Below, piece by piece: positions 41,751-60,538 of a stretch of 64,000 nucleotides of DNA. The stretch's first letter is position 1. Every line of letters begins with the position of its first letter. A program made the position numbers and the translations under genes. Below the pieces are notes generated by a model. The model made no database searches, was not told where the DNA came from, and saw nothing but the letters and a program-made list of their open reading frames with translations. This DNA is from Priestia megaterium (GTDB taxonomy: Bacteria > Bacillota > Bacilli > Bacillales > Bacillaceae_H). The stretch covers positions 1,960,001 through 2,024,000 of the forward strand of contig NZ_CP085442.1 of NCBI RefSeq assembly GCF_023824195.1, in the 5' to 3' direction.

Positions 41751-42746
41751 ATGAAGTTAATTATTGCAGAAAAGCCGGATCAAGGATCGACGCTCGCTTC
41801 ACAGTTTAAGCCAAAGCGTCACGACGGCTATTTAGAGATTCCACCGAATGAAGTGTTTACAGACGGAGCGTATGTGACGTGGGCAGTGGGGCATTTATGT
41901 CAGCTTGTGAGTCCGGAAGATTATAAGCCGGAGTGGAAAAAGTGGTCAATTGACACGCTGCCGATGATTCCAGACCGTTTTCAATATGAAGTGACGCGCT
42001 CAAAAGCGAAGCAGTTTCAAGTGGTAAAAAAGCTGCTTAAAAAGCCCACGGTCACAGAAATTATACATGCGGGAGATGCGGGGCGTGAAGGGGAATTAAT
42101 TGTTCGTAATATCATTCAGCTGTCAGGTGTGCATAAGCCGATGAAACGATTGTGGATTTCTTCTTTAACGCCAAAAGCCATTTATGATGGGTTTCAACAG
42201 TTAAAAGACGAAAGCGATACGCGTAACCTTTATTATGAAGCATATACAAGAGCATGTGCAGATTGGGTCGTTGGGATGAATGCTTCACGGGTGTATAGCA
42301 TTTTGTTAAAAAAGCATGGCATGTCAGATGTTTTTTCAGCAGGACGAGTTCAGACGCCAACTCTTGCTTTGATCGTGAAGCGTGAAAAAGAAATTGATAA
42401 CTTTAAATCAGAGCCTTTTTGGGAAGTGCTTGCTAAGTTTGATATTGAAGGAAAGAAGTATGAAGGTAAATGGCATCAAGATGGAGAATCGCGTCTTAAA
42501 GAAAAAGAAATGGCCTATAAAATTGCTCAGTTTTGCGAAGGAAAAGAAGCGGAAGTTCATGAACTCGTAACGGAGCGAAAAGAGTTCCAGCCGCCGCTAT
42601 TATTTAACCTATCATCACTTCAAGCAACGGCGAATAAAGCGTTTAAGTTTTCTCCTAAAAAGACGCTTGATGTGCTGCAAGGGCTGTATCAGAAAGGAAT
42701 TGTTTCTTATCCACGAAGTTTATCTATAAAAAATAGTTGTACATAA
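41751..42746 (+). pseudogene. topB: DNA topoisomerase III, truncated after the catalytic tyrosine
   Basis: 331 codons of an enzyme normally of about 700-730 aa. The TOPRIM part is intact (MKLIIAEKPDQGSTLASQF, HAGDAGREGELIVRNI), as are the following DNA-gate parts (DVFSAGRVQTPTLALIV). The homology ends at GIVSYPRS. Tyr320 of that motif is the strand-cleaving residue; the expected D-S-R continuation is replaced after base 42719 by unrelated AT-rich DNA and a stop at 42744. The 3' half is not found elsewhere in the window. The start is ATG 41751, 8 nt after TAAGGTGA; an upstream TTG is rejected. A truncated TopB is unlikely to be active. The break marks the left edge of the Hachiman-carrying insertion. 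Confidence 0.9.
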
Positions 42747-42832
42747 ATAGTGATAAAGATACAAACTTTGATATTATTGGAATACTAATATGTTAAGTTT
42801 GTGTTCATAAATTTAAAGTGTACATAAATAGT
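42738..42832 (+). repeat. Short direct repeats at the left edge of the defence insertion
   Basis: TGTACATAAATAGTGAT (42738) and TGTACATAAATAGTTAT (42819) share 14 bp in a row. A third, weaker match, TGTTCATAAATTTAAA, lies at 42802. They start 18 bp after the topB break. Repeated sites of this kind are found at the ends of Tn7/Mu-type elements, but no inverted partner was found at the right side. Confidence 0.5.
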
Positions 42833-43195
42833 TATCTTAGATTCAATCACCAATAAAAATTTAAGCTTCTAATTAACTCCTCTAGTTATATGCCTTCTGT
42901 CTGCATTTTTAACCCTAAAACAAATATTGGAATTCTTAAAAAGATATTTTTAAACAAATTATTGTTTTTAGAGCTATATGTTGAGGGCTACTTATCTACT
43001 TTTCATATAAAACATAATAAGTAAAAAATATTTAATTCTTTTTGCTTATTTAATGTTAATTTATTGTATAATTAGTATATAAAAGAAATAGTTCTAAAAT
43101 CACACTCTTGCAAGTTATCTTCTTTATAAAAATCAGAATAGTCAATTATTTTTAAGCTTTATATTGTTACTATAACTTTTTAAAGGGGAAAGATA
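42747..43195. other. AT-rich region upstream of hamA
   Basis: 449 bp, visibly more AT-rich than the genes to the left. It holds the short repeats at its left end and a possible -10 TATAAT at 43067-43072. No ORF of note. Confidence 0.4.
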
Positions 43196-44176
43196 ATGTC
43201 TTCAATTGAAAATTTACTAAGGGATAAAATGGGTGAAAGGTCAGGAAAGTACCCTAATTTAGAAACTAGATTAAAACAAATTAACTACTCGTGGGAGCAC
43301 AATCATATTGAGCTAGAAGGGTACTTTTATTATTTAACATTTAAAGATAGAAACCCTACTATAGATGAGTTTGTACAGCTAATGTATGATCGCATTGCTG
43401 ACTTTTGCTTGCCTGAAAGAATAAAAAAGGAATATATGGAGAAATTCCTAGAGAAAATGGATGAAAGACATATATACGCTATGAGAGATGAAGCCTGTGA
43501 TTTGTTTATTAAGGCTAAAGAACAACAAAAGAAAACTGGAGAGCCAGGAGAATTAGCTTTGTTTCTTTTACTAGAATTAGGATTACATGCACCCCAAATT
43601 GCTTCAAAAATGTTTTTGAAAACTAATGTAAACATGCCTGTTCATGGATCAGATGGAGTTCATGCAAGGTTTAACAATAACACTGGATTTTTAAATTTGA
43701 TTTGGGGAGAATCTAAGCTATACCAACAATTGCCTAGTGCTTTAGATGAAATTTGTTCTTCAATTTCAAATTTTATTAATCATGAACAGGATGGATCTAT
43801 TCCAAAAGAAAGAGACATTAAAATCATTAAAGGGCATCTATCTATTGATGATGAGGATTTGAAAAAGGTATTATTAAAATATTTTGATCCGTATGAAGAT
43901 GAAAGTAATGAGATAGAAGAATACTTCGCTTGTTTTGTTGGATTTAACTATTCTTTTCTGCGAAACACTCAACGTTTTACAAGAGAAGAAATAGTGCAGA
44001 AATTCGAAGAGCAATATCTTCAGAGAATCAAAACAGCTTGTGATTTATTTAAAGAGAAAATAGAGAATCAAGGGATTAAACATTTAAAATTTATATTCTT
44101 TTTATTGCCTTTTAAAGATGTTTCAGAAGTTCGTACGAAATTTTATAGAAAGTTAAAGGGTGGTTTTGATGAATAA
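43196..44176 (+). CDS. hamA: HamA, DUF1837 nuclease of a Hachiman anti-phage system
   Basis: 326 aa. Residues 115-200 match DUF1837: G115-EPGEL, IASKMFLKTNVNMPVHGSDG and WGESKLY. Glu119, Asp153, Glu172 and Lys174 form a PD-(D/E)xK nuclease pattern (E...D...ExK). In known Hachiman systems HamA is the effector nuclease held by HamB. The ATG follows AAAGGGGAAAG by a good spacing. Codon use is much more AT-rich than in the ars or uronate genes, which suggests transfer. It overlaps hamB by 8 nt. The family call rests on the motif set, the tight pairing with a large SF2 helicase and their sizes. Confidence 0.85.
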   Translation: MSSIENLLRDKMGERSGKYPNLETRLKQINYSWEHNHIELEGYFYYLTFKDRNPTIDEFVQLMYDRIADFCLPERIKKEYMEKFLEKMDERHIYAMRDEACDLFIKAKEQQKKTGEPGELALFLLLELGLHAPQIASKMFLKTNVNMPVHGSDGVHARFNNNTGFLNLIWGESKLYQQLPSALDEICSSISNFINHEQDGSIPKERDIKIIKGHLSIDDEDLKKVLLKYFDPYEDESNEIEEYFACFVGFNYSFLRNTQRFTREEIVQKFEEQYLQRIKTACDLFKEKIENQGIKHLKFIFFLLPFKDVSEVRTKFYRKLKGGFDE

Positions 44177-46766
44177 AGAGCTCTCTGATAAAATTTGGAA
44201 AAAGGAAGAATTTATAAAAGATTATGAGTTACTTTTGTCAGAAGGGTTCAAAAAATCTTTTTCTTTATTTAAAGAAGATTCACAGTTATCTTTGCTGTCT
44301 TTAAAGCGTTTATTGGAAAGTGCAACGATATTTTCAACTACAGAAGAGAAAGAGTATAAAGAAGCAGCCTATAAAATAGCAATTAATTCATTATTATTAT
44401 TTAAAGATAATCTTGAAAATTTACATGAATTAATAGAATTTATAATGTTAAGGTTGGGGAATTTTCCTGCAATTGATTTAATGAGCAAAAAAGGGTTAAA
44501 AAGCGATGCTCATGATAAAACCTTGCCTTTTCTTTCTGTTGTAGAGTCCATTCAAAAAACACAAGAAAATACCTTGCAAATAAAAGATAATAGTTTTAAA
44601 TTAACTGATTTCCAAAAAGAATTATGGGGATATTTAGGGTTAGGTCTAACAGTTTCTTTAAGTGCGCCTACTTCAGCAGGGAAGTCTTTTATCTTACAAA
44701 ATTTTATTATGGATAAACTAATTACTAATAATAGATTTAATGCTATTTATGTAGTCCCTTCTAGAGCTCTGATTACACAAGTTTCTAATACATTAATGAA
44801 ATCCATGAAAGATAATAATTTAACCAATGTTTCAATAAGTACCGTTCCAAACATTTCAAAAGATAATCATTATGAAAAAGAAGTTTATGTATTGACCCAA
44901 GAGAGATTACAGATTTTGCTAAAAGATCATCCGGAAAAAGTTTTTGATCTTGTAATCGTGGATGAATCTCAGTTAATATCGGATGATGATAGAGGGGTTA
45001 TTTTACAATTTGTATTAGAAAATTTATTAAATATCCATAAAGAGACTCAAATAATTTTTGCTTCTCCTCTTACAGAAAATCCACAGTTATTACCTAAAAT
45101 TTTCGGGATTGAAAAGTTTAAAAGCATTAAGGAAGAAGAAAGTTCTGTTTCACAAAATTTAATATTTTTAAACGTAGAGAATAATCAAATACAATTAGAA
45201 ACGCAAATCAATCAAAACAAGGTATTACTTGGAACAGAAACACTAAGCTTTAATGATAGAGAAGCGTCCTTGCTGTCAAAGATAGCAGTTCAATTTGGAA
45301 TGGGGCATAATAATTTAGTTTACGCTGGTGGACAAGCAAAAAGTGAATTAATCGCAAAAGAAATTTCGAATTTGTTGACAGAAGAAACTGAAGATGAAAC
45401 AATCTTACATTTTATTGATTTTATAAAAGATTATATCCATGAAGAATACGAACTGGTTCACTCATTAAAGAAAGGGGTAGCCTTTCATTACGGAAATATC
45501 CCTGCAATAATTAGATCAACAATAGAAGATTTATATAGTCAAGGTAAACTAAAGTATTTAGTTAGCACCAGCACTCTCCTACATGGAATTAATTTACCAA
45601 TACAAAATTTATTTTTAGAAAACCCAACAAAAGGTTCTAAAAATACCTCTGAAGGAAGAAAGGACATTCCCATAGCCCCTTTAGAGTTTTGGAATTTAGC
45701 TGGAAGGGCAGGGAGGATGGGAATAGACTTTCAGGGGAATGTTTTTATTATAAATATAAAGGATTGGATAGAGAATCCTTTGAACAATCAATTAGATAAA
45801 AATGTTGAAATAAAGCCAGCATTTCAGAGACATTTGGTTGAAGATAGTAGTCAACTAATTTCTTTTATAAAAGATAAAGGTCATACTTCAGGTAACCCGG
45901 ATTCTCAAGGTCTTGAAACAACCTTCGTTAAACTTTATACACATTTTTTGAGTGATACTTTAAATCAAACTTTTGATAACTTAGATTCCCCAGTTAGCGA
46001 AACTGTAAGGAATGATATAAGTAGTGCTCTTAAAGAAATGTATAAAGAACTTGAGATTCCGGGTTCGCTAGTGAGAAACAATATCTCTATTTCACCGTAT
46101 AGGCAAGAACAAATGTTACAATACTTAATAAAAAAAATAGACAAAGAAGGTCCTACAAAATTTATTCCGTTGCATCCTTTAAGAGACTGGAAAGAGGTTT
46201 ATGATAACTACCTTTGGACGTTCAAAAGAATTCATACAAATCTTCAAAAGATACCTGGTAAAGATCGTTCTCATTTTTACTTTGCTCCTTTAGCTATTAG
46301 GTGGATGAGGGGAGAATCATTTTCTGGACTAATCCAAGATGCCTATGATTTTAAAAATAAAAACATGAAAGGAACCCCAAATATATCTACAGTAATTAGA
46401 GAAGTAATGTCTAATATAGAAAAACAGTTAAGATTTCGATATGTAAAATATTTTAGTTGCTATTTAGATATCTTAAAATTTGCATTAGATCAAACAGGTA
46501 ACTCATCATGGAAGGAGAATATCCCTAATATTTCATTATATTTAGAGTTGGGCGCTAGTTCTAGGACTATGATTAGCTTTATGGAATTAGGCTTGTCTAG
46601 GGCTACAGCAAGTATATTAACGATAGTAGTAAAGAACAATAATTTAAATACTGAAGATGTAAAGAAGTGGTTATCTAAAGTTGATTTAGAGAAATTGTCA
46701 CTTCCACTTGTTTGCAAAGAAGAGATAATTAATTTGTTTATATATAATAAACTAACGCGACCTTAA
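44169..46766 (+). CDS. hamB: HamB, SF2 helicase of a Hachiman anti-phage system
   Basis: 865 aa. N-terminal helical region (1-145). Helicase core: Walker A SAPTSAGKS (165-173), motif Ia VVPSRALITQ, Walker B DESQ (265-268, in place of DEAH), motif III ASPLTEN, YLVSTSTLLHGINLP (motif V) and AGRAGRMG (511-518, motif VI). A long C-terminal part (560-865) follows, with a helix-hairpin-like end. In Hachiman systems HamB surveys damaged or invading DNA and releases HamA. The ATG 44169 is 8 nt after AAGGG; an upstream in-frame GTG (44160) overlaps that site. AT-rich codon use as in hamA. Confidence 0.85.
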   Translation: MNKELSDKIWKKEEFIKDYELLLSEGFKKSFSLFKEDSQLSLLSLKRLLESATIFSTTEEKEYKEAAYKIAINSLLLFKDNLENLHELIEFIMLRLGNFPAIDLMSKKGLKSDAHDKTLPFLSVVESIQKTQENTLQIKDNSFKLTDFQKELWGYLGLGLTVSLSAPTSAGKSFILQNFIMDKLITNNRFNAIYVVPSRALITQVSNTLMKSMKDNNLTNVSISTVPNISKDNHYEKEVYVLTQERLQILLKDHPEKVFDLVIVDESQLISDDDRGVILQFVLENLLNIHKETQIIFASPLTENPQLLPKIFGIEKFKSIKEEESSVSQNLIFLNVENNQIQLETQINQNKVLLGTETLSFNDREASLLSKIAVQFGMGHNNLVYAGGQAKSELIAKEISNLLTEETEDETILHFIDFIKDYIHEEYELVHSLKKGVAFHYGNIPAIIRSTIEDLYSQGKLKYLVSTSTLLHGINLPIQNLFLENPTKGSKNTSEGRKDIPIAPLEFWNLAGRAGRMGIDFQGNVFIINIKDWIENPLNNQLDKNVEIKPAFQRHLVEDSSQLISFIKDKGHTSGNPDSQGLETTFVKLYTHFLSDTLNQTFDNLDSPVSETVRNDISSALKEMYKELEIPGSLVRNNISISPYRQEQMLQYLIKKIDKEGPTKFIPLHPLRDWKEVYDNYLWTFKRIHTNLQKIPGKDRSHFYFAPLAIRWMRGESFSGLIQDAYDFKNKNMKGTPNISTVIREVMSNIEKQLRFRYVKYFSCYLDILKFALDQTGNSSWKENIPNISLYLELGASSRTMISFMELGLSRATASILTIVVKNNNLNTEDVKKWLSKVDLEKLSLPLVCKEEIINLFIYNKLTRP

Positions 46767-46848
46767 ATAAAGCGTATTTCAAATAGTTCATTTCATAGTT
46801 CTATCAAGTACTTTTGTTTGTTACATTACAAACTAATCAAAACTATCC

Positions 46849-46884
46849 CAATAGAGTAAACCCTATTGGGATAGTTCTGTTTTC
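46849..46884 (+). terminator. Hairpin after hamB
   Basis: AACTATCCCAATAG / CTATTGGGATAGTT perfect 14-bp stem with an 8-nt loop, then CTGTTTTC. Probable terminator; with its weak T run it could also be a recombinase-linked site, since the recombinase gene starts 58 nt on. Confidence 0.65.
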
Positions 46885-46942
46885 ACGAAATTGCTATAAT
46901 TAGAGTGTCCCATATGACTTATCCCAAAATGGAGGTGGGAAA

Positions 46943-47530
46943 ATGCGTAAAATAGGGTATTGTCGAGTAAGTTCATCAGATCAAAATCCTAAAAGACAAA
47001 TTATACAGCTGCAAGAAATAGGCTGTGAAATTATTTATCAAGAACATACCTCTGGAGCTTCAACAAACCGTCCTGAATTACAAAAAATGTTAAGTGATTT
47101 GAAAGAAGATGACACTATTCATGTTACAGATTTGACCCGTATAACTAGAAGTACAAAAGATCTATTTGAGCTTATAGATTATATAAAGGAAAAGAGAGCT
47201 AACCTTAATTCTTTAAAGGATAATTGGCTTAACCTTTCGGAAAATAATCCTTATAGTCACTTTCTTATTACAGTAATGGCTGGTGTAAATCAATTGGAAA
47301 GAGATTTGATAAGGATGAGGCAAAGAGAAGGAATTGAGCTTGCTAAGGAAGAAGGAAAGTATCAGGGAAGATTGAGAAAATATCATGAAAAGCATGCTGG
47401 AATGAATTACGCAATAAAACTTTATAATGAAGGAAATATGACTGTAAAACAAATATGCGATATCACCAATGTATCTAGATCAGCTTTATATAGAAATATA
47501 AAAAATAATAAATCAAGTTTATTGAAATGA
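46943..47530 (+). CDS. Serine recombinase (resolvase/invertase family)
   Basis: 195 aa. Catalytic domain with Y6-CRVSSSDQ (Ser10 nucleophile), then VTDLTRITRST for the Arg residues, and the long E-helix ending VNQLERDLIRMRQREGIELA. The C-terminal HTH is GNMTVKQICDITNVSRSALY. This is the resolvase/invertase size, not a large serine integrase. It lies directly after hamAB and is the only recombinase gene in the window, so it may have moved or maintained the module. GGAGGTGGG precedes the ATG. Confidence 0.92.
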   Translation: MRKIGYCRVSSSDQNPKRQIIQLQEIGCEIIYQEHTSGASTNRPELQKMLSDLKEDDTIHVTDLTRITRSTKDLFELIDYIKEKRANLNSLKDNWLNLSENNPYSHFLITVMAGVNQLERDLIRMRQREGIELAKEEGKYQGRLRKYHEKHAGMNYAIKLYNEGNMTVKQICDITNVSRSALYRNIKNNKSSLLK

Positions 47531-47555
47531 TTTATTAAAAAACTTGTTATAAACA

Positions 47556-47595
47556 CTTATAAGGGGAAACATGTTAACACTGTTTCCCTTATAAG
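47556..47595. terminator. Inverted repeat after the recombinase gene
   Basis: CTTATAAGGGGAAAC (47556-47570) and GTTTCCCTTATAAG (47582-47595) pair over 14 bp with one bulge. It may end the recombinase transcript or mark an element edge. Confidence 0.6.
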
Positions 47596-47623
47596 CCTTT
47601 CATTTCTTAAGCTGTCTTTACTT

Positions 47624-47962
47624 CTAGTTAAGTACAATACTCGTCATTAAACCTAGATAAATACTTATAAGAAAACAGAATCCAAAAAAAACGGCTAATA
47701 CGGGAATTGTTTTCTTATAAAAGCTAAGAAAAATCATAAAAAGAAACAGAATCCCAAAGGAAAAAGCAACTATCCCTTGTAATGAAGCTATTATTTCTAA
47801 ATTGACTGGCGTTTTAATAGAGCTCCCAAGTAAATCTATAACCCACCTCGCTGCACCTTCAGATTTGACTGTAAGATTAATATCATGTGGTGGGGAAATG
47901 TGCCTAAAATTCCTGTGAAAAAGAAAACCACTAGGATACTTATGCACTCTGCTTTTACCCAA
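47624..47962 (-). pseudogene. Membrane-protein remnant fused to the cut cadA end
   Basis: 112 codons, of which the C-terminal 60 (LEIIASLQGIVAFSFGILFL onward) form two or three membrane helices. The N-terminal 25 residues look unnatural. In another frame the same DNA (47890-47940, minus strand) reads SILVVFFFTGILGTFPHHMI, a good membrane helix. I read this as a small multi-pass membrane protein broken by a frameshift and joined to the cadA fragment upstream. The family is not recognised. It has no ribosome site of its own. Confidence 0.45.
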
Positions 47963-48503
47963 GGTTTGGGATAGGGGAAAAAGCCAATTGGTGGTTAGCT
48001 ACTACTTGCAGTTTTCCTGTGCTGTAATTTACTTTTACGTCTTGTATATCTTTTAAAGTCTTTAGAATTTTTTCAATAGTAGCAGCACAAGCAGGACAAT
48101 CCATTCCATATACTCGATATTCGTTTTTTTCTCCTGTTCCATCTGAAACATGTTCTTCCTCTTCAGATGCTGAACTGTAACTACAACAACTTGACTTAAG
48201 TTGTAGATGTTCTTCTTTAGTTAAGGCAATACTATCTGAGCTGCAGCAACTATCTATCTTTATTTCACTTGACGTGTTGCTGCTACAATAAGTTGATTGT
48301 TGTTCTTTAGGTTTTTCCTCAACTACCTTAGAGCTGCTTAAACTACAACAGCTTGATTTCTTCTGATAATCTTCCTCTTTTAATAAAGCAATACTATTTG
48401 AACTACAGCAACTATCGCTTTTCACTTCATTTTCTAATTTTGTTGAAGGGTTGCTACTGCAACAACTTATATTTGATTCATCTTGTTCATTTTTGTGTGC
48501 CAT
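47955..48503 (-). pseudogene. N-terminal fragment of a Cd/Zn-exporting P-type ATPase, with Cys-rich repeats
   Basis: 182 aa. Residues 1-125 hold Cys-pair repeats: SCCSSN, DSCCSSNSIAL, SSCCSLSSS, DSCCSSDSIAL and SSCCSYSS, with a block of about 60 residues present twice. Residues about 130-182 are an HMA domain with YGMDCPACAATIEKILKTLK. The membrane and catalytic parts of the ATPase are missing; the frame ends at FSPIPNLG. It follows cadC in the usual cadC-cadA order. The true start is the ATG at 48503, 9 nt after AGGAG. It could still make a soluble metal-binding protein. Confidence 0.75.
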
Positions 48504-48534
48504 TTCTTCCAACTCCTCATATAGTAAGAAAAGC

Positions 48535-48894
48535 TTAAATCGTAATTTCTTCCTTCTCAGTAAACAGGACTTGAATCAACTGCTTAATATGTTCATCATT
48601 CAAAGAATAAAAAGCTAGTTTTCCTTCTTTACGGTAGCTTGCAATTCCCATATTACGAAGAAGTCTCAAATGATGAGAAGCTGTTGCTACTGTAGACCCA
48701 ACAATATTAGCTACGTCACAAACACATAATTCTTCTCCCTTATACAAAGCAAGGACAAGCTTCAATCTTGTTTCATCTGCTAAAGCTTTTAAGGTCTTCG
48801 TTACACCTTGAGCTTTCTCAACATCTATAGAAGACTTAATACGATTAACTTTTTCTTCGTTATAACAATAAATATCGCAACGGTCTTTTGCCAT
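48535..48894 (-). CDS. cadC: Cadmium/zinc-responsive repressor CadC (ArsR/SmtB family)
   Basis: 119 aa. N-terminal CDIYC supplies the metal-binding cysteine and ELCVCDVANI the two Cys of the alpha-4 site, as in CadC of S. aureus pI258. STVATASHHLRLLRNMGIAS is the recognition helix. It represses cadCA; Cd, Pb or Zn releases it. The ATG at 48894 is preceded by AAGGAGG; nine upstream codons are rejected. Two operator-like sites lie upstream. With cadA cut, it may now be an orphan regulator. Confidence 0.93.
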   Translation of the reverse strand: MAKDRCDIYCYNEEKVNRIKSSIDVEKAQGVTKTLKALADETRLKLVLALYKGEELCVCDVANIVGSTVATASHHLRLLRNMGIASYRKEGKLAFYSLNDEHIKQLIQVLFTEKEEITI

Positions 48895-48917
48895 AATTTC
48901 CTCCTTATATTCAAACA

Positions 48918-48933
48918 TTCAAATGTGTATTTG
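48918..48933. promoter_or_regulatory. CadC operator 1
   Basis: TTCAAATGTGTATTTG, an imperfect palindrome with the TCAAAT / ATTTG halves of cad operators, just upstream of the cadC ribosome site. Confidence 0.7.
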
Positions 48934-48962
48934 TTTATAATGTATGCCATTTTCAAAGAGTG

Positions 48963-48979
48963 TTCAAATGTTTATTTGA
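48963..48979. promoter_or_regulatory. CadC operator 2
   Basis: TTCAAATGTTTATTTGA, a second copy 45 bp further upstream. Two sites with this spacing could also serve the rightward gene at 49073. Confidence 0.65.
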
Positions 48980-49072
48980 TTATTTTTTGAAACAAGAACT
49001 AAATTGATTATAAAAAAACATATGCTGGGTAACAGAGGATAGTTTAAGGTTGATGCAAAAAGGGGGAAAGAC

Positions 49073-49324
49073 ATGAAATGTCTTAAAGCATTGAAAGTAT
49101 TTTATGTACTTTTAGCTGTAGTGGGAGCCATTCTAGCTATCGTTTCTTACTTTCAGCATTCACTTTACTTGAAGTCATTTGGCCTTGTTTTGTTAGGAGC
49201 ATCGCTCATTTTTAATGGTTACGCTACTCATTTAGAGTGGAAAGGAAAAGGGCCCTTTCTATACATGGGCATAGGTCTAATAGTGATTGTGATAGCTATA
49301 GGTGGATTCACTGAGGCATGGTAA
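49073..49324 (+). CDS. 83-aa membrane protein, unknown
   Basis: Three hydrophobic segments (about 8-26, 32-48 and 61-78) with short polar loops. No family recognised. The ATG is preceded by AAAAAGGGGGAAAG. It diverges from cadC across the two CadC operators, so it may be metal-controlled. Confidence 0.6.
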   Translation: MKCLKALKVFYVLLAVVGAILAIVSYFQHSLYLKSFGLVLLGASLIFNGYATHLEWKGKGPFLYMGIGLIVIVIAIGGFTEAW

Positions 49325-49693
49325 CTATTAATGTTAATGAAGAAAAGTATATATAGTTAAACTATATATAGAATGTTTTAAATTCTAACATCTAAGAACA
49401 ACCTAACTATCCTCATTTCTAATAAAGTTGTCTTTCCAAGTTTTATCTCTTATTTATGTAGTAGGTTCTTATTTAGCTGCTCGTTATATAACGAAAAGAA
49501 AAGCAATGAAAAAGAAATGAGCACAAACAGCATAAGATTTAAGCAATAAAAAAGGGCAAACCTTTTGGATTTGCTCTTTTTTATGAGTGGATACTCTTCT
49601 TTCTATTGAACATCTTTAAAACCTAGGTATGATTGCTTTTTCTTCGAATAGGTTAATTGTAAATACCAATATAGCCGAAAGGAAGTAACAGTT
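49325..49693. other. Intergenic region with a possible gene remnant and a terminator
   Basis: 369 bp. At 49429-49521 a frame reads QVLSLIYVVGSYLAARYITK and ends KRKAMKKK, one membrane helix and a basic tail, but it lacks a ribosome site and a proper start and may be a 3' gene remnant. A terminator follows at 49551. Confidence 0.35.
49551..49583 (+). terminator. Intrinsic terminator
   Basis: AAAGGGCAAA / TTTGCTCTTT (one G-U pair) with a T run. Confidence 0.8.
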
Positions 49694-50419
49694 ATGCATA
49701 TAGAAATGAATTTGTTATTCACTATAGGTTCATTACTTGGCTTGTTAGTAGGTGGTGGCCTCCTTAAAATAGTAAGCTATGTAGTTCAGGGAAGGATCCA
49801 GTTTATGTATGCCATTTGTGGAGGAATATTATTAGGATTATTGTTCTTCGATATCCTTCCTTCTACTTGGCATATATACGACCTACAAGGAGTGCTATTA
49901 GGAATTGTTGTAGGATATATCATCATGCTATGTATTGACCTCTTTTTGCATAAACAAAATAGTGAAATTTCACCTTTACAGGCACTCATTTTATTAACAG
50001 TAGCTATATTCTTTCATAATGTAATTACTGGTATTACATTCGGTATAACCGATATACACCAGTCAACTTCTGTGTTTGTAGCCACCATTTTACACCAGAT
50101 TCCAGAGGGCATGGCAATCATGACTGTTCTTTCTGTAGCAAAAGTACCGCAATTATTCTTTTTACTAATTATAATCTTCTTATCTCTATCCTTAGGTGGT
50201 AGTTTATTAATTGGAGAAAGCGTACAAGCTTCCTCACTTAAATTACAAGCTTTATCGACTGGGGGAGCAATCGGTACATTGTCCTTCGTTATCTTTCATG
50301 AAGTAATAGGCAAGGCTATAACTCATTTTAGACGTCTACATGTATGGATGCTTATAGGCTTAGGGGTATTAATTATTTACTTTTATCAGTATTCCCTTTC
50401 ACTGTTTCACGGTCATTAA
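49694..50419 (+). CDS. ZIP-family divalent metal transporter
   Basis: 241 aa, seven or eight membrane segments. The metal-path motifs are FFHNVITGITFGI (TM4) and ILHQIPEGMAIM (TM5), the HN...H-x2-PEG signature of ZIP proteins. Zinc or another divalent cation is the expected substrate; ZIP proteins usually import, though direction is not provable here. It may carry metal in balance with the efflux genes around it. AAGGAAG lies before the ATG. Confidence 0.85.
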   Translation: MHIEMNLLFTIGSLLGLLVGGGLLKIVSYVVQGRIQFMYAICGGILLGLLFFDILPSTWHIYDLQGVLLGIVVGYIIMLCIDLFLHKQNSEISPLQALILLTVAIFFHNVITGITFGITDIHQSTSVFVATILHQIPEGMAIMTVLSVAKVPQLFFLLIIIFLSLSLGGSLLIGESVQASSLKLQALSTGGAIGTLSFVIFHEVIGKAITHFRRLHVWMLIGLGVLIIYFYQYSLSLFHGH

Positions 50420-50540
50420 AGGGATTTTGTTATGAGTTGTTTTAAAAACGACAAGAATGATGGATATACCTTGTAGGTTGAACTTTTCCTTACTATTATA
50501 GAGTTAGTTACTAATATAATAGTAGGAAAGGGTGTCTTAG

Positions 50541-51065
50541 TTGCATAAAAAGTCTTTAGTTGTATTAATCATGTTAATAGTAAGCATAGTTTCTACAGCT
50601 TGTTCAAGTTCAAGTACAAGTGAAGAAACGGCTAGTAAGGAAAAAACAAATGCTACAGAGAAAGAGCATCAACAACATTCCGAACACGTTAGTGGTGACA
50701 TTAGGGAAGAAACAGCAAGCAATGAAATCTTGCCTGAATTTTTAAAGAATAAATCAGAAGATATGCAGGTTATTTATGCAAGTGTTGCCCAAAATAAAGA
50801 ACTATTAGAGAATATTCCATGCTATTGTGGATGTGGAGAATCGGCAGGACATAAAAATAACTATGATTGCTTTATCTATGAGAATAAAGAAAATGGAAAG
50901 GTAGTATGGGATGACCATGGAACAAAATGTGGGGTTTGTCTTGAAATTGCAGCACAGTCAGTTTCTGATTTAAAGTCAGGAAAATCAATCAAACAAATCC
51001 GTCAATCAATTGATGAAAAATATAAAAGTGGATATGCAAAACCAACACCTACTCCTGAAATTTAA
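50541..51065 (+). CDS. PCYCGC-motif lipoprotein
   Basis: 174 aa. Lipoprotein signal with lipobox STAC, a His-rich acidic linker (EKEHQQHSEHVSG), then IPCYCGCGESAGHKNNYDC and HGTKCGVCLEIA. This is the PCYCGC domain (PF13798), Cys-rich and probably metal or heme binding, outside the membrane. TTG start behind GGAAAGGGTG at proper spacing. It converges with the multicopper oxidase gene, and a copper role is likely by context only. Confidence 0.88.
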   Translation: MHKKSLVVLIMLIVSIVSTACSSSSTSEETASKEKTNATEKEHQQHSEHVSGDIREETASNEILPEFLKNKSEDMQVIYASVAQNKELLENIPCYCGCGESAGHKNNYDCFIYENKENGKVVWDDHGTKCGVCLEIAAQSVSDLKSGKSIKQIRQSIDEKYKSGYAKPTPTPEI

Positions 51066-51106
51066 GTTCGAGTTCCTCAATAATAAACAATATTATGATT
51101 TATCAT

Positions 51107-51147
51107 AAAAGAATCCCCAGACAATATTGCTGCCTGGGGATTCTTTT
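51107..51147. terminator. Bidirectional terminator
   Basis: AAAAGAATCCCCAG / CTGGGGATTCTTTT, 14-bp stem between the two convergent genes; it overlaps the oxidase stop codon. Confidence 0.9.
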
Positions 51148-52774
51148 ATTCAGGTTTGTTATTTGCATTTGAATCTGGTGTGAAAGAAGGTTTATACCCC
51201 TTATATTTTACTGCTGTGACCATTCCGGCCGAAGCATGATGTAAATCATGACAGTGAAACATCCAGTTTCCAGGACTGTCAGCCTTGAATGCCACAACAT
51301 ATTCTTCACCTGGTTTAACATTCAGCGTATCTTTCATTAGTGGTGAACCTTCTATCGGCTTTCCGTTTTTACTCAACACTTGAAAGAAATGTCCATGTAA
51401 ATGCATTGGATGATCAGCTGATTTAGATGTGTTTTTCAACGTTACTTTAACTACATCACCTTCTTTTACATTTAAAGGTTCAGTATTAGGATAGGTTCTA
51501 TTGTTGATTGTATAAACCATACTATTGTCTTTCATAGCTGTACCAAGATTCATTTTATATTCAACGTCGTATTTACTATCAAGAGAAAATTCACTTTTTG
51601 TAGTTTTACCATATTTAGTGATATCTACATTTGGTATAGATTCTTCTGGATTTAGTTTATCATTAGCTTTCTTTGAGTTATCATAAACGATTTTAGCAAC
51701 CATATTTTTAGTAGCATCGGTATCATCATGAGATTCAATATATGATGTACCAGGGTTGTTAGCTTTGAATACTAAATCGTATCGTTCACCTGGAGCAACT
51801 GTCACCGTTTGATCTTTTATAATAGCAGGATTGTTAATTGGTTGCCCATCTGTTGAGACAATTTTAAATTCATATCCATGTAAGTGTATCTTATGAGAGA
51901 TATATCCTGCATTGACTAAGCGAATTTTTACTGTATCTCCTTCAGTAACTTTTAGGGTTTCCATATTATTTGCACTTTTTCCATTAATGGTATAAAGATC
52001 ATACATGCTCATATCATCTTCCATATCCATATTCATATTCATTCCATCCATGCTTTCGGTTGAGTTATCTGTATCGTTCTTATTTTCTTCACTTGTCATG
52101 GATCCATGATCCATACCTTCCATGCTACTCTCACCGGACGAAATCCATTCATCTAAAACAAGTGTATAATCTTTATCTACTTTTTCTTCATTTTTTCCTT
52201 CTACAATCAGCGTTCCATATAAACCTTTGTCTATTTGATTGACGCTATCCTGATGTGAATGATACCAATATGTTCCCGGAACAGAAGCTGTAAATTCATA
52301 AATGAATGTTTTACCCGGCTGTACAGCATTCATAGTGACTCCAGGAATCCCATCTTGACTATTTGGAACAGGAAGTCCATGCCAGTGGATTGTTACAGGT
52401 TCAGATAATTCATTTTTTAAGTTGATTTTAACCTTATCTCCTTGTTTGACTCGAATTTGGGATCCAGGGACAGAACCATCATATGTCCAAACAGGTAATT
52501 TCGTTCCATTACCAAAATCATGTGTAGCTTCTTTAGCAGTTAGAGTGAATTCCTTTCCTGTCTTTACTTGTGTTGTTCGAGTAGAAGGGAATTTTTCTTT
52601 TTTACTTTGTTCTCCCTTGTTTGTATTATCCATGTTAGACATATCGTGATTGTTCCTGTCTTCTTCTTTCATGTTAGACATATCATGCCCTTTCATACTG
52701 TCTTCACTATTAGAGCAAGCAACTCCAATGACAACTAACAATGCTAAAATTAAAGTAAGCCATAACTTTTTCAC
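51146..52774 (-). CDS. Multicopper oxidase, lipoprotein, copper resistance type
   Basis: 542 aa. Lipobox IGVAC, then a Met/His-rich linker (KGHDMSNMKEEDRNNHDMSN) and three cupredoxin domains. The copper ligands are all present: HWHG, YWYHSHQ, HPMHLHGHFFQV and FHCHDLHH. A Met-rich loop (SMDGMNMNMDMEDDMSMYD) in the middle is like those of CueO/CopA oxidases that oxidise Cu(I). It acts outside the membrane, turning Cu(I) into less toxic Cu(II). GTG start behind GGAGGTG. Divergent from the sensor kinase of copper module 2. Confidence 0.93.
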   Translation of the reverse strand: MKKLWLTLILALLVVIGVACSNSEDSMKGHDMSNMKEEDRNNHDMSNMDNTNKGEQSKKEKFPSTRTTQVKTGKEFTLTAKEATHDFGNGTKLPVWTYDGSVPGSQIRVKQGDKVKINLKNELSEPVTIHWHGLPVPNSQDGIPGVTMNAVQPGKTFIYEFTASVPGTYWYHSHQDSVNQIDKGLYGTLIVEGKNEEKVDKDYTLVLDEWISSGESSMEGMDHGSMTSEENKNDTDNSTESMDGMNMNMDMEDDMSMYDLYTINGKSANNMETLKVTEGDTVKIRLVNAGYISHKIHLHGYEFKIVSTDGQPINNPAIIKDQTVTVAPGERYDLVFKANNPGTSYIESHDDTDATKNMVAKIVYDNSKKANDKLNPEESIPNVDITKYGKTTKSEFSLDSKYDVEYKMNLGTAMKDNSMVYTINNRTYPNTEPLNVKEGDVVKVTLKNTSKSADHPMHLHGHFFQVLSKNGKPIEGSPLMKDTLNVKPGEEYVVAFKADSPGNWMFHCHDLHHASAGMVTAVKYKGYKPSFTPDSNANNKPE

Positions 52775-52969
52775 TACAGCACCTCCATATTAATTTAAAT
52801 ATGTCTACAATGTAATTTATAATTGTGCAGAATGTTTGCAGATACTGTAAATAATTAATGGCTTACGAAATTTGTCTAAAGATAATTTTGAATTATTACC
52901 CAATCTGCACACTTTCTTCACATATTTTTTCTAAAATTTGTTGAAGGCTAAGTTAAAGGACGTGAAAAC

Positions 52970-54346
52970 ATGAATAGACTCTCATTAAAACTTGGCTTAT
53001 TGTTTCTAGCTTTCATTCTATTGATTGAGGTTGGCTTATTTTTTTATCTATATACTGGGCTGGCTGGCACGAGAATTTCAGAGGAATTAGAAAGTTTAAG
53101 ACTACGAGGGAACAGTCATCGTGAGGTATTAGAGAAACACCATGATTCTGCTCCCCTAAGCCATGTCGCTTTGATGGAATCAGAAGCAGAGACAGATGTA
53201 ATTATTACAGATAAAGATGGAAAAATTATACGGACTTCTAGTCCTTTAGTAAAAGGAGCTAGAAAAGCTGTAGAACAATGGCAAGGCTATTCTCTTAGGT
53301 ATAAAGGGGAAATTATGCAAGGGGATTGGAAAAACAAACCCTATATTGCAACTGCCTCTCCCATTAGAATAAACCAAAAAAACGTCGGAACTGTGTACAT
53401 GTTTGAAAATACTAAAGATATACAAGATATGATAGCTAGGCTTCAACATCATTTTTATATAGTCGGAGTTATTTCAGTGTTATTTTCAATTATCACTGTT
53501 TTTGCGCTTTCTAAATTTATAACACTCCCTCTTATAAGAATGAAACAAGCAACTCAAAAGCTTAGTCAAGGAGATTTTTCTGTAAAGCTGGGTGCACATT
53601 CAAGAGATGAATTGGGCCAGTTAGGAACATCTATTCAAATCCTTGCTAATGAACTACATCGTTTAAAGGAAGAACGTAACGAATTTTTAAGTAGCATATC
53701 ACATGAACTACAAACCCCTCTTATGTACTTAAAAGGGTATGCTGATGTAGCGAAACGCCAATCAAACAGTGAAATGGAAAGAAATAAATACCTTAATATC
53801 ATTGAAGAGGAAGCTCAAAGGCTATCTCAACTAGTTAAAGATCTATTTCAACTTGCTCAACTTGATCAACATACATTTTTAATTCAAAAACAGAATGTAA
53901 AATTATACTCCTATTTACATCATATAACTCAGCATTTTGATCTGGCCTTAAAAGAAAAAGATATTCAACTACATTTAAATTGCCCACGAGAAATTGAGGC
54001 GAATATTGACCCTGAAAGATTCCAGCAAGTTGTTGTTAACTTATTAGATAATGCATTGAAGTATTCTGATAATGGATCCGAAATTTTAGTAATAGTGCGA
54101 GAACTACCTAAAAAAGTTACGATCACCTTTAAAGATCAAGGAGGAGGAATTCCTTCAAAAGATCTTCCCTATGTCTTTGATAAATTATATAGAGTAGAAA
54201 AATCACGATCAAGGAAAAGTGGGGGTTATGGTTTAGGATTATCTATTGTAAAAGAAATTGTGGAAGCTCATGGAGGAGAAGTCACAATAGAAAGTGGAGT
54301 AGGAAAAGGCACTATGGTTGAAATCTTGTTAAGAGAGGATGGTTAG
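52970..54346 (+). CDS. Sensor histidine kinase, copper module 2
   Basis: 458 aa, the same length, domain order and His245 position as the kinase at 26757. The sensor loop (SEELESLRLRGNSHREVLEK, MESEAETDV) is nearly unchanged between the two, so they likely sense the same signal. SISHELQTPLMYLKGYADV, NLLDNALKYS, DQGGGIPSKDLPYVFDKLYR and SGGYGLGLSIV are intact. Codon use is more AT-rich than in copy 1. It is coupled to the next gene and divergent from the multicopper oxidase. Confidence 0.92.
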   Translation: MNRLSLKLGLLFLAFILLIEVGLFFYLYTGLAGTRISEELESLRLRGNSHREVLEKHHDSAPLSHVALMESEAETDVIITDKDGKIIRTSSPLVKGARKAVEQWQGYSLRYKGEIMQGDWKNKPYIATASPIRINQKNVGTVYMFENTKDIQDMIARLQHHFYIVGVISVLFSIITVFALSKFITLPLIRMKQATQKLSQGDFSVKLGAHSRDELGQLGTSIQILANELHRLKEERNEFLSSISHELQTPLMYLKGYADVAKRQSNSEMERNKYLNIIEEEAQRLSQLVKDLFQLAQLDQHTFLIQKQNVKLYSYLHHITQHFDLALKEKDIQLHLNCPREIEANIDPERFQQVVVNLLDNALKYSDNGSEILVIVRELPKKVTITFKDQGGGIPSKDLPYVFDKLYRVEKSRSRKSGGYGLGLSIVKEIVEAHGGEVTIESGVGKGTMVEILLREDG

Positions 54347-54347
54347 A

Positions 54348-55028
54348 ATGCCAACTATTTTGTTAGTTGATGACGAATTAAGGATGTTAGATTTACTTGA
54401 ACTTTATCTTACTCCAAATGGTTTTACATGTATTAAATTTGATTCTGGAGTTGAAGCGTTAAACTATCTAGAAGAAGGAAATGAAGCTGATTTAATGCTT
54501 TTGGATATTATGATGCCCGATAAAGATGGATGGGAGATATGCCAGGAAGTTAGAAGTAGTTCCAAGATTCCAGTAATAATGCTAACCGCGCGTAATCAAA
54601 CCGTTGATATAATAAAGGGTTTGAATACAGGAGCTGATGATTATATCGTTAAACCTTTTAGTGAAGGAGAACTGATTGCTCGTCTTAGAGCAGTATTAAG
54701 GAGAGCTTCAACGGAAAATCAGGAGATTAACTATAAAGGGTTATTATGGAGTCGAGAAAATCACCTGTTAAAATATGAAGATCAAGAAATACAAGTGACT
54801 CCAAAAGAGTTTAAATTAGTAGGATTACTCTTACAATACCCAAATAGAGTGTTTAGTCGTGAAGATTTATTAACCTCAGTATGGGGGTACGATGCTGAAA
54901 TTGAAGGAAGAACAATTGATTCACATGTGCGAAATGTAAGAGATAAACTACGTAAAGCCAACTTTCCTGTAGATAACCACCTTCAAACTGTGTGGGGATT
55001 AGGCTATAAATGGGTAGACAGCAATTAG
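54348..55028 (+). CDS. OmpR-family response regulator, copper module 2
   Basis: 226 aa, with ILLVDDELRML, Asp53 in LLDIMMPDKDGWE, KPFSEGEL and the winged helix (TPKEFKLVGLLLQ, TIDSHVRNVRDKLRKAN, GLGYKWV). The start is ATG 54348, with AGAGG ten bases upstream; ATG 54339 is too close. Its 3' end overlaps the DedA-like gene by 19 nt. Paralogue of the regulator at 28135; likely partner of the preceding kinase. Confidence 0.93.
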   Translation: MPTILLVDDELRMLDLLELYLTPNGFTCIKFDSGVEALNYLEEGNEADLMLLDIMMPDKDGWEICQEVRSSSKIPVIMLTARNQTVDIIKGLNTGADDYIVKPFSEGELIARLRAVLRRASTENQEINYKGLLWSRENHLLKYEDQEIQVTPKEFKLVGLLLQYPNRVFSREDLLTSVWGYDAEIEGRTIDSHVRNVRDKLRKANFPVDNHLQTVWGLGYKWVDSN

Positions 55029-55576
55029 AGCAAGTTGTTGTTGAGTGGTTATCTACCAATGAACTTATAGCCATATTAATTAGTCTATCCCTTAACATAG
55101 TCATAAGTATTTTAGGCATTATACCTAGTATATTTCTTACGGCTGCAAACTTGAAAATATTTGGTTTTTGGGAAGGGACTGTCATTTCATTTTTTGGAGA
55201 AGTTATAGGAACTAGTGTATCTTTTTGGTTATATAAAAAGGGATTTAAATCATTTTTAAGAGACAAGACGCGAAATCATCCTAAACTAGATAAACTCTTA
55301 TCAACTACAGGGAAAGATGCTTTTTTTCTAGTTATAGGTCTGCGTCTATTGCCTTTTATACCTTCCGGATTGGTTACATTCCTTGCTGCTGTTGGAAATA
55401 TGAGCTTTTTAATATTCTTCTTAGCTAGTACTTTGGGAAAGATCCCTGCCATCGTCTTAGAATCCTATTCAACATATCAAGTAGTAAATCTAACGTTAGA
55501 AGGAAAATTAATTTTAGCTGGGGCAGCTCTGTTTTTAATTCTCTATACTGTAAGGCGTAAAAAATCTAACAAATAA
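55010..55576 (+). CDS. TVP38/TMEM64 (DedA superfamily, VTT domain) membrane protein
   Basis: 188 aa, four or five membrane segments. IPSIFLTAANLKIFGFWEGT and the VTT core LRLLPFIPSGLVTFLAAVGN followed by SFLIFFLASTLGKIPAIVLE match TVP38/TMEM64. Members flip or scramble lipids or affect proton-motive force. It starts inside the last codons of the regulator gene, so expression is coupled to it. No counterpart exists in copper module 1. Confidence 0.85.
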   Translation: MGRQQLEQVVVEWLSTNELIAILISLSLNIVISILGIIPSIFLTAANLKIFGFWEGTVISFFGEVIGTSVSFWLYKKGFKSFLRDKTRNHPKLDKLLSTTGKDAFFLVIGLRLLPFIPSGLVTFLAAVGNMSFLIFFLASTLGKIPAIVLESYSTYQVVNLTLEGKLILAGAALFLILYTVRRKKSNK

Positions 55577-55629
55577 AATATTATTGCTCCTTAGATTAAC
55601 AGAACAATCCGAATGTATGGAGGATGTTC

Positions 55630-56808
55630 ATGAAAAATAGACGGGAAAGAAGGCCATCTAATCAGCCGGATCGGTATACGAAACGATCAGTATTTGCTTT
55701 TGTTATGATTTGTTTATTCCTTATAGCCATATTAATTCTAAATCCAGCTTCAAGTAGTTATATTTATACCAACCCTCTAAATCAGTGGTTAAGAAGTTAT
55801 CCGGCGGAATCCATGATGTACGTAATGGGGACTGAAAATAAGCATTTTAGACAAGTACTTCCAAAAGGGGTTGAGCCCCCTAACGTTTTATCCGTTACTG
55901 TTGAGATGTTTACAGGTATTCAGCCACAGCGAATCGCTACCCTTCTTTTAGATGAAGTCCCTGGTTTTAAAACGTTTGATACAAAAATAATAGTGGCAGG
56001 TGAAGGAACAAACTACAGCAACCTTCCTATCGAATCTTCTCCACCTATGGATGTGTTATTAAAAGAAAGAGAATTATCTAAAGAAAATCTACAGGAATTA
56101 GAAAAGACTGAACAAAGTACGGAACATAAACACGAAGAGCCTTCAAAGAGTACAGAAGGTAAGAAAGTAGCCTTCATTTATCATACACATAGCCGTGAAT
56201 CTTTTTTGCCTTATTTAAAGGGAGAAGATAATCCAGATAACGCCCATGACTCTAAAGTGAATATTATGTTGGTAGGTAAAAAATTAGGTGAACAGTTAGA
56301 GCAAAAAGGAATTGGAACTGAAGTAAATACAACTGATGTAGTAAAAGAGTTAGAATCAAAAGGATTAGATTATCGTAGCTCCTATAAGATGACCAGAGAA
56401 ATTTTACAAACATCTACTAATCAAAATAGAAATTTAACTTTCTTTTTTGACTTACATCGAGATTCTCAAAGAAGAGCTATTACAACAAAAGAAATTAAGG
56501 GTAAAGATTATGCCAGATTATTTTTTATTATTGGTACCGAATATAAGAATTATGAAAAAAACTTACAGTTCGCAAAAGGGTTAAATAATCTTTTGGAGAA
56601 GAATTATCCTGGCATATCTAGAGGTATATTTGAAAAAAATAAAAGTCAAGGAAATGGCGTGTACAATCAGGACTTATCAACACATTCCATTATTATAGAA
56701 GTTGGTGGAGTTGATAATACGATGGAAGAAATGTACCGGACAACAGATGCGTTAGCAGAAGTAATAGCAGAATATTACTGGCAAGCAGAAGCAGTAACAA
56801 ATCAATAA
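55630..56808 (+). CDS. spoIIP: Stage II sporulation protein P homologue (SpoIIP)
   Basis: 392 aa. N-terminal membrane segment (about 20-40; FAFVMICLFLIAILIL), a linker with QSTEHKHEEPSKSTEGKK, then the SpoIIP catalytic domain: FIYHTHSRESFLPYL (His185, His187), FFDLHRDSQRR (His276) and IIIEVGGVDNTMEE. In B. subtilis SpoIIP is a cell-wall amidase/endopeptidase for engulfment. ATG 55630 is 6 nt after GGAGG; ATG 55624 touches it. The motifs are intact, so it is likely active. Finding it between a regulator pair and csoR is unusual. It could trim wall during metal stress or affect sporulation; both are inference. Confidence 0.92.
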   Translation: MKNRRERRPSNQPDRYTKRSVFAFVMICLFLIAILILNPASSSYIYTNPLNQWLRSYPAESMMYVMGTENKHFRQVLPKGVEPPNVLSVTVEMFTGIQPQRIATLLLDEVPGFKTFDTKIIVAGEGTNYSNLPIESSPPMDVLLKERELSKENLQELEKTEQSTEHKHEEPSKSTEGKKVAFIYHTHSRESFLPYLKGEDNPDNAHDSKVNIMLVGKKLGEQLEQKGIGTEVNTTDVVKELESKGLDYRSSYKMTREILQTSTNQNRNLTFFFDLHRDSQRRAITTKEIKGKDYARLFFIIGTEYKNYEKNLQFAKGLNNLLEKNYPGISRGIFEKNKSQGNGVYNQDLSTHSIIIEVGGVDNTMEEMYRTTDALAEVIAEYYWQAEAVTNQ

Positions 56809-56845
56809 ATAGACAATCTTTCATAGAAATAAATTTTTAAACGAA

Positions 56846-56874
56846 CCCCACAATATTTTCTGCCTTTTGTGGGG
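56846..56874 (+). terminator. Intrinsic terminator after spoIIP
   Basis: CCCCACAA / TTGTGGGG stem, then AATTTCTTAATTTTTT. It separates the kinase-to-spoIIP unit from csoR-copZ-copA. Confidence 0.75.
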
Positions 56875-56912
56875 AATTTCTTAATTTTTTTAAAAAAAGG
56901 GCTTTTTACCCT

Positions 56913-56941
56913 TCACATAGGGTAGGGGGGTACCGTATAAT
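56913..56941 (+). promoter_or_regulatory. csoR promoter 2 with CsoR operator
   Basis: -35 TTCACA (56913), spacer 17, -10 TATAAT (56936). The spacer holds TAGGGTAGGGGGGTA, identical over 15 bp to the box at 28887 in module 1. Confidence 0.8.
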
Positions 56942-56965
56942 GTAATTAAGAAAGGAGGAAATTAA

Positions 56966-57298
56966 ATGGATGAATTAGAAAAAATCACTGACAATGATAG
57001 TTGTTGTTCTATAAATAATGAACGTAGAAGTCATCACTCTCCAGAAGTGAAGAAAAATCTAACCAGTAGATTGAATCGTATCGAAGGACAAATTCGAGGG
57101 ATTAAAGGATTAATTGAGAAAGATACTTATTGTGACGATGTAATTACTCAAATTGCAGCTGTACAATCTGCTTTAAACGGTGTAAGTAAGATATTACTTG
57201 AAGGACACCTTAAACACTGTATAGTTGAGCGTGTTCAAGAAGGCGATAAAGAAGTAGTAGATGAATTATTGACAACAATTAAACGACTAATGAAATAA
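56966..57298 (+). CDS. csoR: Copper-sensing transcriptional repressor CsoR (second copy)
   Basis: 110 aa. Identical to the copy at 28935 over most of the core (HHSPEVKKNLTSRLNRIEGQ, DTYCDD, GHLKHCIVER), with changes mainly in the first 25 residues (DNDSCCSINNERRSHHS). The Cu ligands Cys56, His81 and Cys85 are present. Since both operators and both proteins match, cross-control of the two modules is likely. Ribosome site GAAAGGAGG. Confidence 0.95.
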   Translation: MDELEKITDNDSCCSINNERRSHHSPEVKKNLTSRLNRIEGQIRGIKGLIEKDTYCDDVITQIAAVQSALNGVSKILLEGHLKHCIVERVQEGDKEVVDELLTTIKRLMK

Positions 57299-57315
57299 AA
57301 AAGGAGATGTTAAGA

Positions 57316-57522
57316 ATGGAAAAAGTAACGTTAACAGTTAGAGGAATGTCTTGTGGTCATTGTGTGAAATCTATTGAAGGAAGTGTTGGTGAACTTAACG
57401 GTGTACAACATGTAGAGGTAAATCTAAATGAAGCAAAGGTAACCGTTGAATTTGATCAAAACAAAGTATCGTTAGAATCAATTAAAGAAGCTATTGATGA
57501 CCAAGGTTATGAAGTAGCCTAA
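57316..57522 (+). CDS. copZ: Copper chaperone CopZ (second copy)
   Basis: 68 aa HMA protein with MSCGHCVKSIEGSVGELNGV and DDQGYEVA. The ATG at 57316 is 10 nt after AAGGAG; an in-frame ATG at 57307 touches that site and is rejected, as in module 1. It shuttles Cu(I) to CopA. Confidence 0.95.
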   Translation: MEKVTLTVRGMSCGHCVKSIEGSVGELNGVQHVEVNLNEAKVTVEFDQNKVSLESIKEAIDDQGYEVA

Positions 57523-57530
57523 ATAAAATA

Positions 57531-57552
57531 GCGTGCGAATTTTTCCGCACGC
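57531..57552 (+). promoter_or_regulatory. Conserved hairpin between copZ and copA, module 2
   Basis: GCGTGCG / CGCACGC, the same 7-bp stem and the same 8-nt loop length as at 29497-29518, although the flanking bases differ. Confidence 0.6.
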
Positions 57553-57568
57553 TTCCTTTAGGAATCGA

Positions 57569-57590
57569 ATATACCTAATAGGGGTATAAT
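57569..57590. promoter_or_regulatory. Second CsoR-like box, before copA module 2
   Basis: ATATACCTAATAGGGGTATA, with the GGGGTATA half on the opposite side to module 1 (CCCC left there, GGGG right here). It lies just before the copA ribosome site AGGAGG. Confidence 0.6.
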
Positions 57591-57603
57591 AGGAGGTTAT
57601 AAA

Positions 57604-60021: not shown

Positions 60022-60035
60022 AGGAGTGTAAGAAA

Positions 60036-60200
60036 ATGAAAAAATGGATTATTTCAGCTGTTTTATACCTCCTTATCGTTGTAGCCGCTTATACTATCTG
60101 GGCGAGTTTCAATGAGAGTCCAAAAAATGAACACCAAAATCATCAATCGATCTCTTATCCAATGTCGATTGAAAAAAGTTATAACGATAGGGTGCGATAG
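60036..60200 (+). CDS. 54-aa membrane peptide after copA (module 2)
   Basis: MKKWIISAVLYLLIVVAAYT begins the protein, followed by IWASFNESPKNEHQ and a His/Ser/Tyr-rich outside tail. Its first 24 residues match the 24-aa peptide at 31995; the tail is extra. AAGGAGTG lies 9 nt before the ATG, a full ribosome site. Kept in both modules at the same place, so probably a real copA partner of unknown function. It overlaps nothing and is followed at once by the ferredoxin-like gene. Confidence 0.75.
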   Translation: MKKWIISAVLYLLIVVAAYTIWASFNESPKNEHQNHQSISYPMSIEKSYNDRVR

Positions 60201-60202
60201 AG

Positions 60203-60532: not shown

Positions 60533-60538
60533 CAATAG

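Follow-up and report, generated by a model that had tools for sequence, protein, structure and literature searches.

A 64,000-nucleotide stretch of the Priestia megaterium genome (assembly GCF_023824195.1, contig NZ_CP085442.1, positions 1,960,001 to 2,024,000; hereafter the window) contains the two-gene Hachiman defence system hamA-hamB, followed by a solitary serine resolvase gene and located behind the 5' part of a broken topB gene (Table 1). The window is part of a 5.16-Mb contig in a 10-contig genome (G000), so the locus is chromosomal and not on a plasmid, the setting assumed in an earlier interpretation made from the letters alone (here, the sequence-only reading).

The hamA product matched the Pfam HamA profile (DUF1837/HamA domain) with 172 bits (E = 2.4e-50, cut-off 25 bits), the check that had been proposed for this 326-aa protein, and the PADLOC HamA1 profile at 1.9e-79; the hamB product matched PADLOC HamB1 at 2.2e-248. 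The PD-(D/E)xK set noted in hamA corresponds to D153, E172 and K174, which are invariant in 31 of 31 aligned HamA sequences, and the top PDB matches of the AlphaFold model of HamA (mean predicted local distance difference test score 86.5) were three E. coli Hachiman chains (8zue_A, 8vx9_A and 8vxy_A), with the next row far below. HamB contains the motifs of a full superfamily 2 (SF2) helicase, namely Walker A (SAPTSAGKS), motif II (DESQ) and motif VI (GRAGR), conserved across 66 relatives (the set comprised 66 of 77 proteins plus the window's HamB, 11 short or interrupted ones being excluded). The two reading frames overlap by 8 nt, and hamB was found directly 3' of hamA in 77 of the 80 HamA loci fetched in a scan of species genomes, these being the best 80 of 125 relatives. 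Profile matches, catalytic motifs, the predicted fold of HamA and the gene order together identify hamA-hamB as a complete Hachiman pair, a further and as such ordinary member of an already known system. The sequence-only reading was right about this module, its overlap, its helicase and the small serine recombinase behind it, as well as about its base composition: the G+C content of the hamA, hamB and recombinase genes is 0.30-0.31, compared with 0.39 in the ars genes on the left, 0.42 in the topB piece and 0.34 on the right (47624-53000).

In E. coli, HamB holds HamA back as long as the DNA is intact and switches it on when the DNA is damaged, and activated HamA leads to degradation of all cellular DNA (PMC12278908). 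By homology, the window's pair could provide phage defence by DNA degradation: HamB would survey DNA, damaged or aberrant DNA in phage infection would cause the release of HamA, and the released HamA would degrade phage and cell DNA, as in the E. coli mechanism (PMC12278908). Compared with HamAB of E. coli ECOR31 (PDB 8VX9 and 8VXY; PMC12278908), identity in the HamA fold alignment is ~12-14%, and HamB motif II is DESQ where the reported E. coli motif is DEGH. The fourth residue of this motif (44961-44972) is Q in 39 and H in 28 of 67 HamB proteins, a switch with 11 changes on the tree, compared with 21.9 with shuffled labels. HamA relatives with 27-32% identity were also observed on five contigs of a viral collection (L139-L143).

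DNA identity with the intact topB of relatives (96%) stops at 42716, the last base of codon 322, directly behind the active-site motif Tyr320-Pro-Arg322; the abrupt stop had been recognised in the sequence-only reading, which placed it at 42719. The alignment with intact topB that it suggested was run on the loci of relatives (L035-L038) and located the 3' part of the gene 52 kb away, where topB resumes from G000:C1:2054902, beyond the window. The two halves are separated by an insert of 52.2 kb, and ~153 bp of topB were lost at the joint. The ars genes to the left represent host synteny, as they are also found beside intact topB in relatives.

The insert opens with an AT-rich terminal region, for which no match was found among plasmid sequences, and which contains a terminal repeat and a second copy of it, TGTACATAAATAG, at 42819-42831. 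Within the insert, and thus within the topB split, is a second topoisomerase III gene, here named topB2, whose 718-aa product is 32% identical to the native topB protein; it adjoins a gene related to a T5orf172-domain protein of another genome of the genus (G004). An IS3 element and several glycosyltransferase-like open reading frames (ORFs) are also present.

Table 1. Features of the locus (positions in the window).
Feature	Position	Strand	Evidence or remarks
5' part of native topB, codons 1-322	41751..42716	+	Pfam Toprim and Topoisom_bac; 96% DNA identity to intact topB
In-window part of the 52.2-kb insert	42717..64000		Continues to G000:C1:2054901 outside the window
AT-rich terminal region of the insert	42717..43195		21% G+C
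Terminal repeat ATCTATAAAAAATAGTTGTACATAAATAGT	42722..42751	+	Inverted match to the G272 right terminus
hamA, Hachiman nuclease subunit	43196..44176	+	326 aa; Pfam HamA, PADLOC HamA1, fold match
hamB, Ski2-like SF2 helicase subunit of Hachiman	44169..46766	+	865 aa from ATG; PADLOC HamB1, motifs
res site core (resolvase crossover site)	46849..46868	+	Half-sites CAATAGAGT and CTATTG
Tn3-type serine resolvase gene (tnpR-like), solitary	46943..47530	+	195 aa; Pfam Resolvase 2.9e-38; neighbours of homologues
Metal-handling gene block	49035..64000, runs on past the window		Collinear with a Priestia megaterium plasmid, 89% identity to NZ_CP059466

Islands at topB were also found in other genomes. 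Of the 397 genomes of the order, 10 encode a 549-aa recombinase, whose module adjoins topB in four of them (G057, G271, G272 and, across two contigs, G004); the neighbours are unassigned in G175, G355 and G357, and the sequence stops at a contig edge in G008. Read from ORFs only, the same module type borders a truncated radA-like gene in G138 (L179:11761-12624) and a truncated flotillin-like gene in G116 (L178:9425-9721). The G057 module is composed of four genes (412, 1155, 549 and 243 aa), an order seen also in related islands, and an integrase domain scored above the cut-off in one of the four proteins and just below it in another. In G004 module genes lie on the topB2 contig, where the first of them is cut off by the contig edge; the contig holding the 3' topB part terminates in a reading frame matching a module gene, suggesting that the two contigs are neighbours.

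The module abuts the topB-type gene at codon ~110 in G057, 322 in G272 and ~516 in G271, and the start of a module gene was found at the ~516 junction of G007. In G272, a genome of another family, the module thus abuts topB from the very codon at which the gene is broken in the window genome. With the window genome and G004 included, every one of the three sites has been hit two or more times, and the cut codons lie in topB signature motifs (DxxREGE, the catalytic YPR and GLGTEATR). Conservation of the cut codons compared with random codons gave P ~0.006 in 14 self-chosen proteins, mostly of the topB2 type, so that this result is only suggestive. A further candidate for codon 516, G077, was not counted, as its topB codons 1-497 are followed by topB2 and no such terminus was seen by eye.

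Island ends were placed by eye ahead of terminus scoring. In inverted orientation, the left terminus of the window island aligned to the right G272 terminus with a score of 40, the shuffled maximum being 29 (0 of 2000 shuffles as good), and the G004/G057 right, G004/G057 left and G271/G007 right pairs also beat all 2000 shuffles. The similarity to the termini of G275 was weak (355 and 44 of 2000 shuffles as good); in this genome (L235-L237, G275:C1:2138586-2189556) a topB2-like gene is split at codon ~324-328 by 48.8 kb, in which searches with the G004 and G057 module genes gave no match. Same-codon targeting of topB by the window island and its relatives is well supported. The sequence-only reading had proposed a mobile arrival of hamA-hamB carried or shaped by the recombinase; the arrival is supported, because this 52-kb insert shares a matching terminus with an island that occupies the same codon of topB in a different family, and the role given to the recombinase did not hold (see below).

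Taken together, the window likely covers the left end of an island that targets topB, is related to the GInts (genomic islands with three integrases) and Tn554, and now persists as an immobile remnant carrying Hachiman, metal genes and a second topB. The island would have integrated site-specifically into topB after codon 322, destroying the gene, presumably by means of tyrosine recombinases that were since lost; later events may have removed the right end, the recombinase genes and ~150 bp of topB, and the divergent topB2 probably takes over the lost topB function.

Several observations weigh against this interpretation. The G004 and G057 module genes had no match in the 100 kb around the window island, and the 1164-aa and 549-aa module genes were not found in the window genome; no right terminus was recognisable at the right border of the island (1558 of 2000 shuffles as good), and these two absences leave one end and one codon to support its membership. 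GInt-type imperfect direct repeats (attL/attR) were not observed at its borders. The insert is also composite, with a plasmid-like metal block for which 24 of 26 matching plasmid records are from Priestia; its collinearity with a P. megaterium plasmid (Table 1) indicates that a portion of the island was either acquired from a plasmid or passed on to one. Finally, topB2-type genes occur in 53 of the 397 genomes of the order; among 38 neighbourhoods of ~20 kb each (of the 53 genomes, 38 were newly read, 4 were already known and 11 were left out), 36 had neither module nor topB fragment within ~9 kb. Genes for topB are common on islands, and an island-borne topB can control excision (PMC6220960).

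The role of topB2 was considered in the light of its distribution. Native topB is intact in seven of ten genomes of the genus and broken in the window genome, in G004 (codon ~111) and in G007, where only codons from ~516 were found; topB2 (96-100% identity) is present in exactly these three genomes and in none of the other seven. An alternative that deserves attention, although we hold it to be unlikely, is that topB2 is no replacement and serves the island itself, for instance in its stability or excision, as topB3 of PPHGI-1. It has this published precedent (PMC6220960), and plasmids often encode type IA topoisomerases (at least 5000 records), but the exact coincidence of topB2 with a broken topB in the genus (3/3 versus 0/7) argues against it. 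The plasmid records also speak against a general rule by which topB2 accompanies a broken topB, as do G057, which has no topB2 in its 12.2-kb island and an intact topB elsewhere, and G272, in which neither topB2 nor the N-terminal part of topB was seen.

We regard as less probable still that topB2 came first and independently, making native topB dispensable, and that islands then piled up in the dead gene. In favour of this order of events, topB2 is common and mostly stands alone, and in G007 it is on a different contig from the topB remnant. However, topB2 sits inside the topB-splitting insert in the window genome; in G271 it lies 2.1 kb in from the left junction (75% identity to topB2 of the window genome), and in G275 an intact copy is located 450 bp inside the left border of the 48.8-kb insert. 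In G077 it is found just behind the topB cut at codon ~497. In intact relatives, native topB is preceded by ~125-160 bases (41639-41777 in the window) that share 81-86% identity with the sequence ahead of topB2 (L033:17050-17210), in contrast with the 32% identity of the two proteins, and the same stretch precedes topB2 in G007 and G004.

A chance break of topB, by illegitimate recombination or integration of plasmid DNA with a coincidental similarity of the terminus, is improbable: the insert is partly plasmid-like, topB sequence was lost, and the two outer ends are joined by no repeats other than 9-10 base words of chance length, but the same codon and a matching 30-base terminus recur in a recombinase-bearing island of another family, and three topB sites were each hit at least twice.

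The solitary resolvase is 71.4-74.2% identical to plasmid homologues located beside Tn3 transposases or vanR. Compared with the Tn3-family resolvase beside vanR, it shows 74.2% protein identity over 95% of the query and the same res core; the vanR-associated transposon is Tn1546. The hairpin after hamB is no terminator but the res site; six aligned sequences all have its half-sites CAATAGAGT and CTATTG unchanged. A role of the serine recombinase in bringing hamAB to topB, or in shaping that event, is very improbable: the gene does lie right behind hamB with a complete res site, but resolvases of this type act on res sites and not on topB, the genome holds only one exact copy of the res core, no Tn3 transposase was found within 100 kb (best match E 2.4) and no Tn3-type terminal repeat nearby (33-base query from L133; best match in 100 kb with 13/33 mismatches, and 11, 13 and 13 in three shuffles), none of the 61 relatives whose sequence extends 1500 bases or more past hamB has a resolvase-type gene there, and the related topB islands carry tyrosine recombinases. 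The gene is located 4.2 kb from the topB junction, and a resolvase-type gene was found elsewhere, upstream of hamA, in 3 of 80 HamA loci. Unlike a Tn3-family transposon, the window copy has neither transposase nor terminal repeats nearby, and it can be regarded as a passenger, perhaps a relic of another element. In G004 a lone res core (L135, G004:C84:1082-1101) is followed closely by a Tn3-like terminal repeat, with no adjoining resolvase ORF, and is perhaps a miniature Tn3-derived element.

Returning to the island remnant, Hachiman was found as left-end cargo at topB in two of the five inserts examined, those of the window genome and G004, and not in those of G057, G271 and G275. A different Hachiman, recognised by other PADLOC profiles, opens the G004 insert. 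When the genus was searched for HamB, matches were obtained in two of ten genomes, again the window genome and G004, each at the split topB, with one further helicase match in G004 away from it. The HamA profile A1 found only 1 of 16 genomes across the family, indicating that it misses the divergent G004 HamA that PADLOC detects. Hachiman queries had no match in the fetched stretches of G057, G271, G272 and G275, and PADLOC gave no match for seven other ORFs (three of L207, one of L173, two of L033 and one of L151).

GInts were described in PMC5385486, named the Tn6571 family in PMC10121019, and carry defence systems in E. coli (PMC10121019). As in GInts (PMC5385486), the relatives of the window island combine cargo and high site specificity with a four-gene recombinase module at one end and an AT-rich far end, a likeness of architecture. 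The window island itself has a short AT-rich far end, and its site, codon 322, is common to the related G272 island, with a shared terminus. The differences are the target, topB inside its signature motifs (the main text of PMC5385486 names ssb and an ABC transporter gene, and no topB or topoisomerase), the second topB carried, and the large, helix-turn-helix-rich module protein; the window island also lacks a four-gene ginABCD-like module. Since neither the module nor the border repeats were found, it is called a remnant related to GInts and not a member. Tyrosine recombinases with a small protein and a site preference also resemble SE elements and Tn554, likened here by description only, for which a ~6-bp footprint is described (PMC10214605). 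PPHGI-1 is likewise a chromosomal island carrying a type IA topoisomerase gene (PMC6220960), but its topB3 is tied to excision and expression, and the parts of that source available to us describe no split host topB. No report of topB as a target of such islands, or of Hachiman at topB, was found in literature searches, supplementary tables being outside the scope.

Other observations concern the surroundings. The metal genes of the insert, copper genes among them, follow the gene order of the P. megaterium plasmid p9 (89% identity). No known RNA families were detected in the window at the gathering threshold. A second insert of ~2.4 kb lies just 3' of the topB end, beyond the window (L034:15945-18381, G000:C1:2055944-2058381); it encodes an ankyrin/SUFU protein and a SUKH (SMI1/KNR4) protein, and its flanks overlap by ~48 bp. 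Proteins of both types are often seen as immunity proteins.

Beyond the single locus, a tyrosine-recombinase island family may exist that is specialised on topB, cuts it at signature-motif codons, supplies a replacement topB and spreads cargo such as Hachiman. This proposal is tentative and stays open to doubt, and the published other role of an island topB (PMC6220960) makes it slightly less probable.

In summary, Hachiman is ordinary here, and its setting at a split topB is unusual. If true, islands specialised on topB and carrying a topB of their own would plainly exemplify a mobile element knocking out a housekeeping gene and perhaps assuming its task, and such a takeover would tie host and element to each other, with a Hachiman cargo that would itself sense DNA integrity. 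The topB genes split at the three codons offer a simple place to look for more defence cargo.

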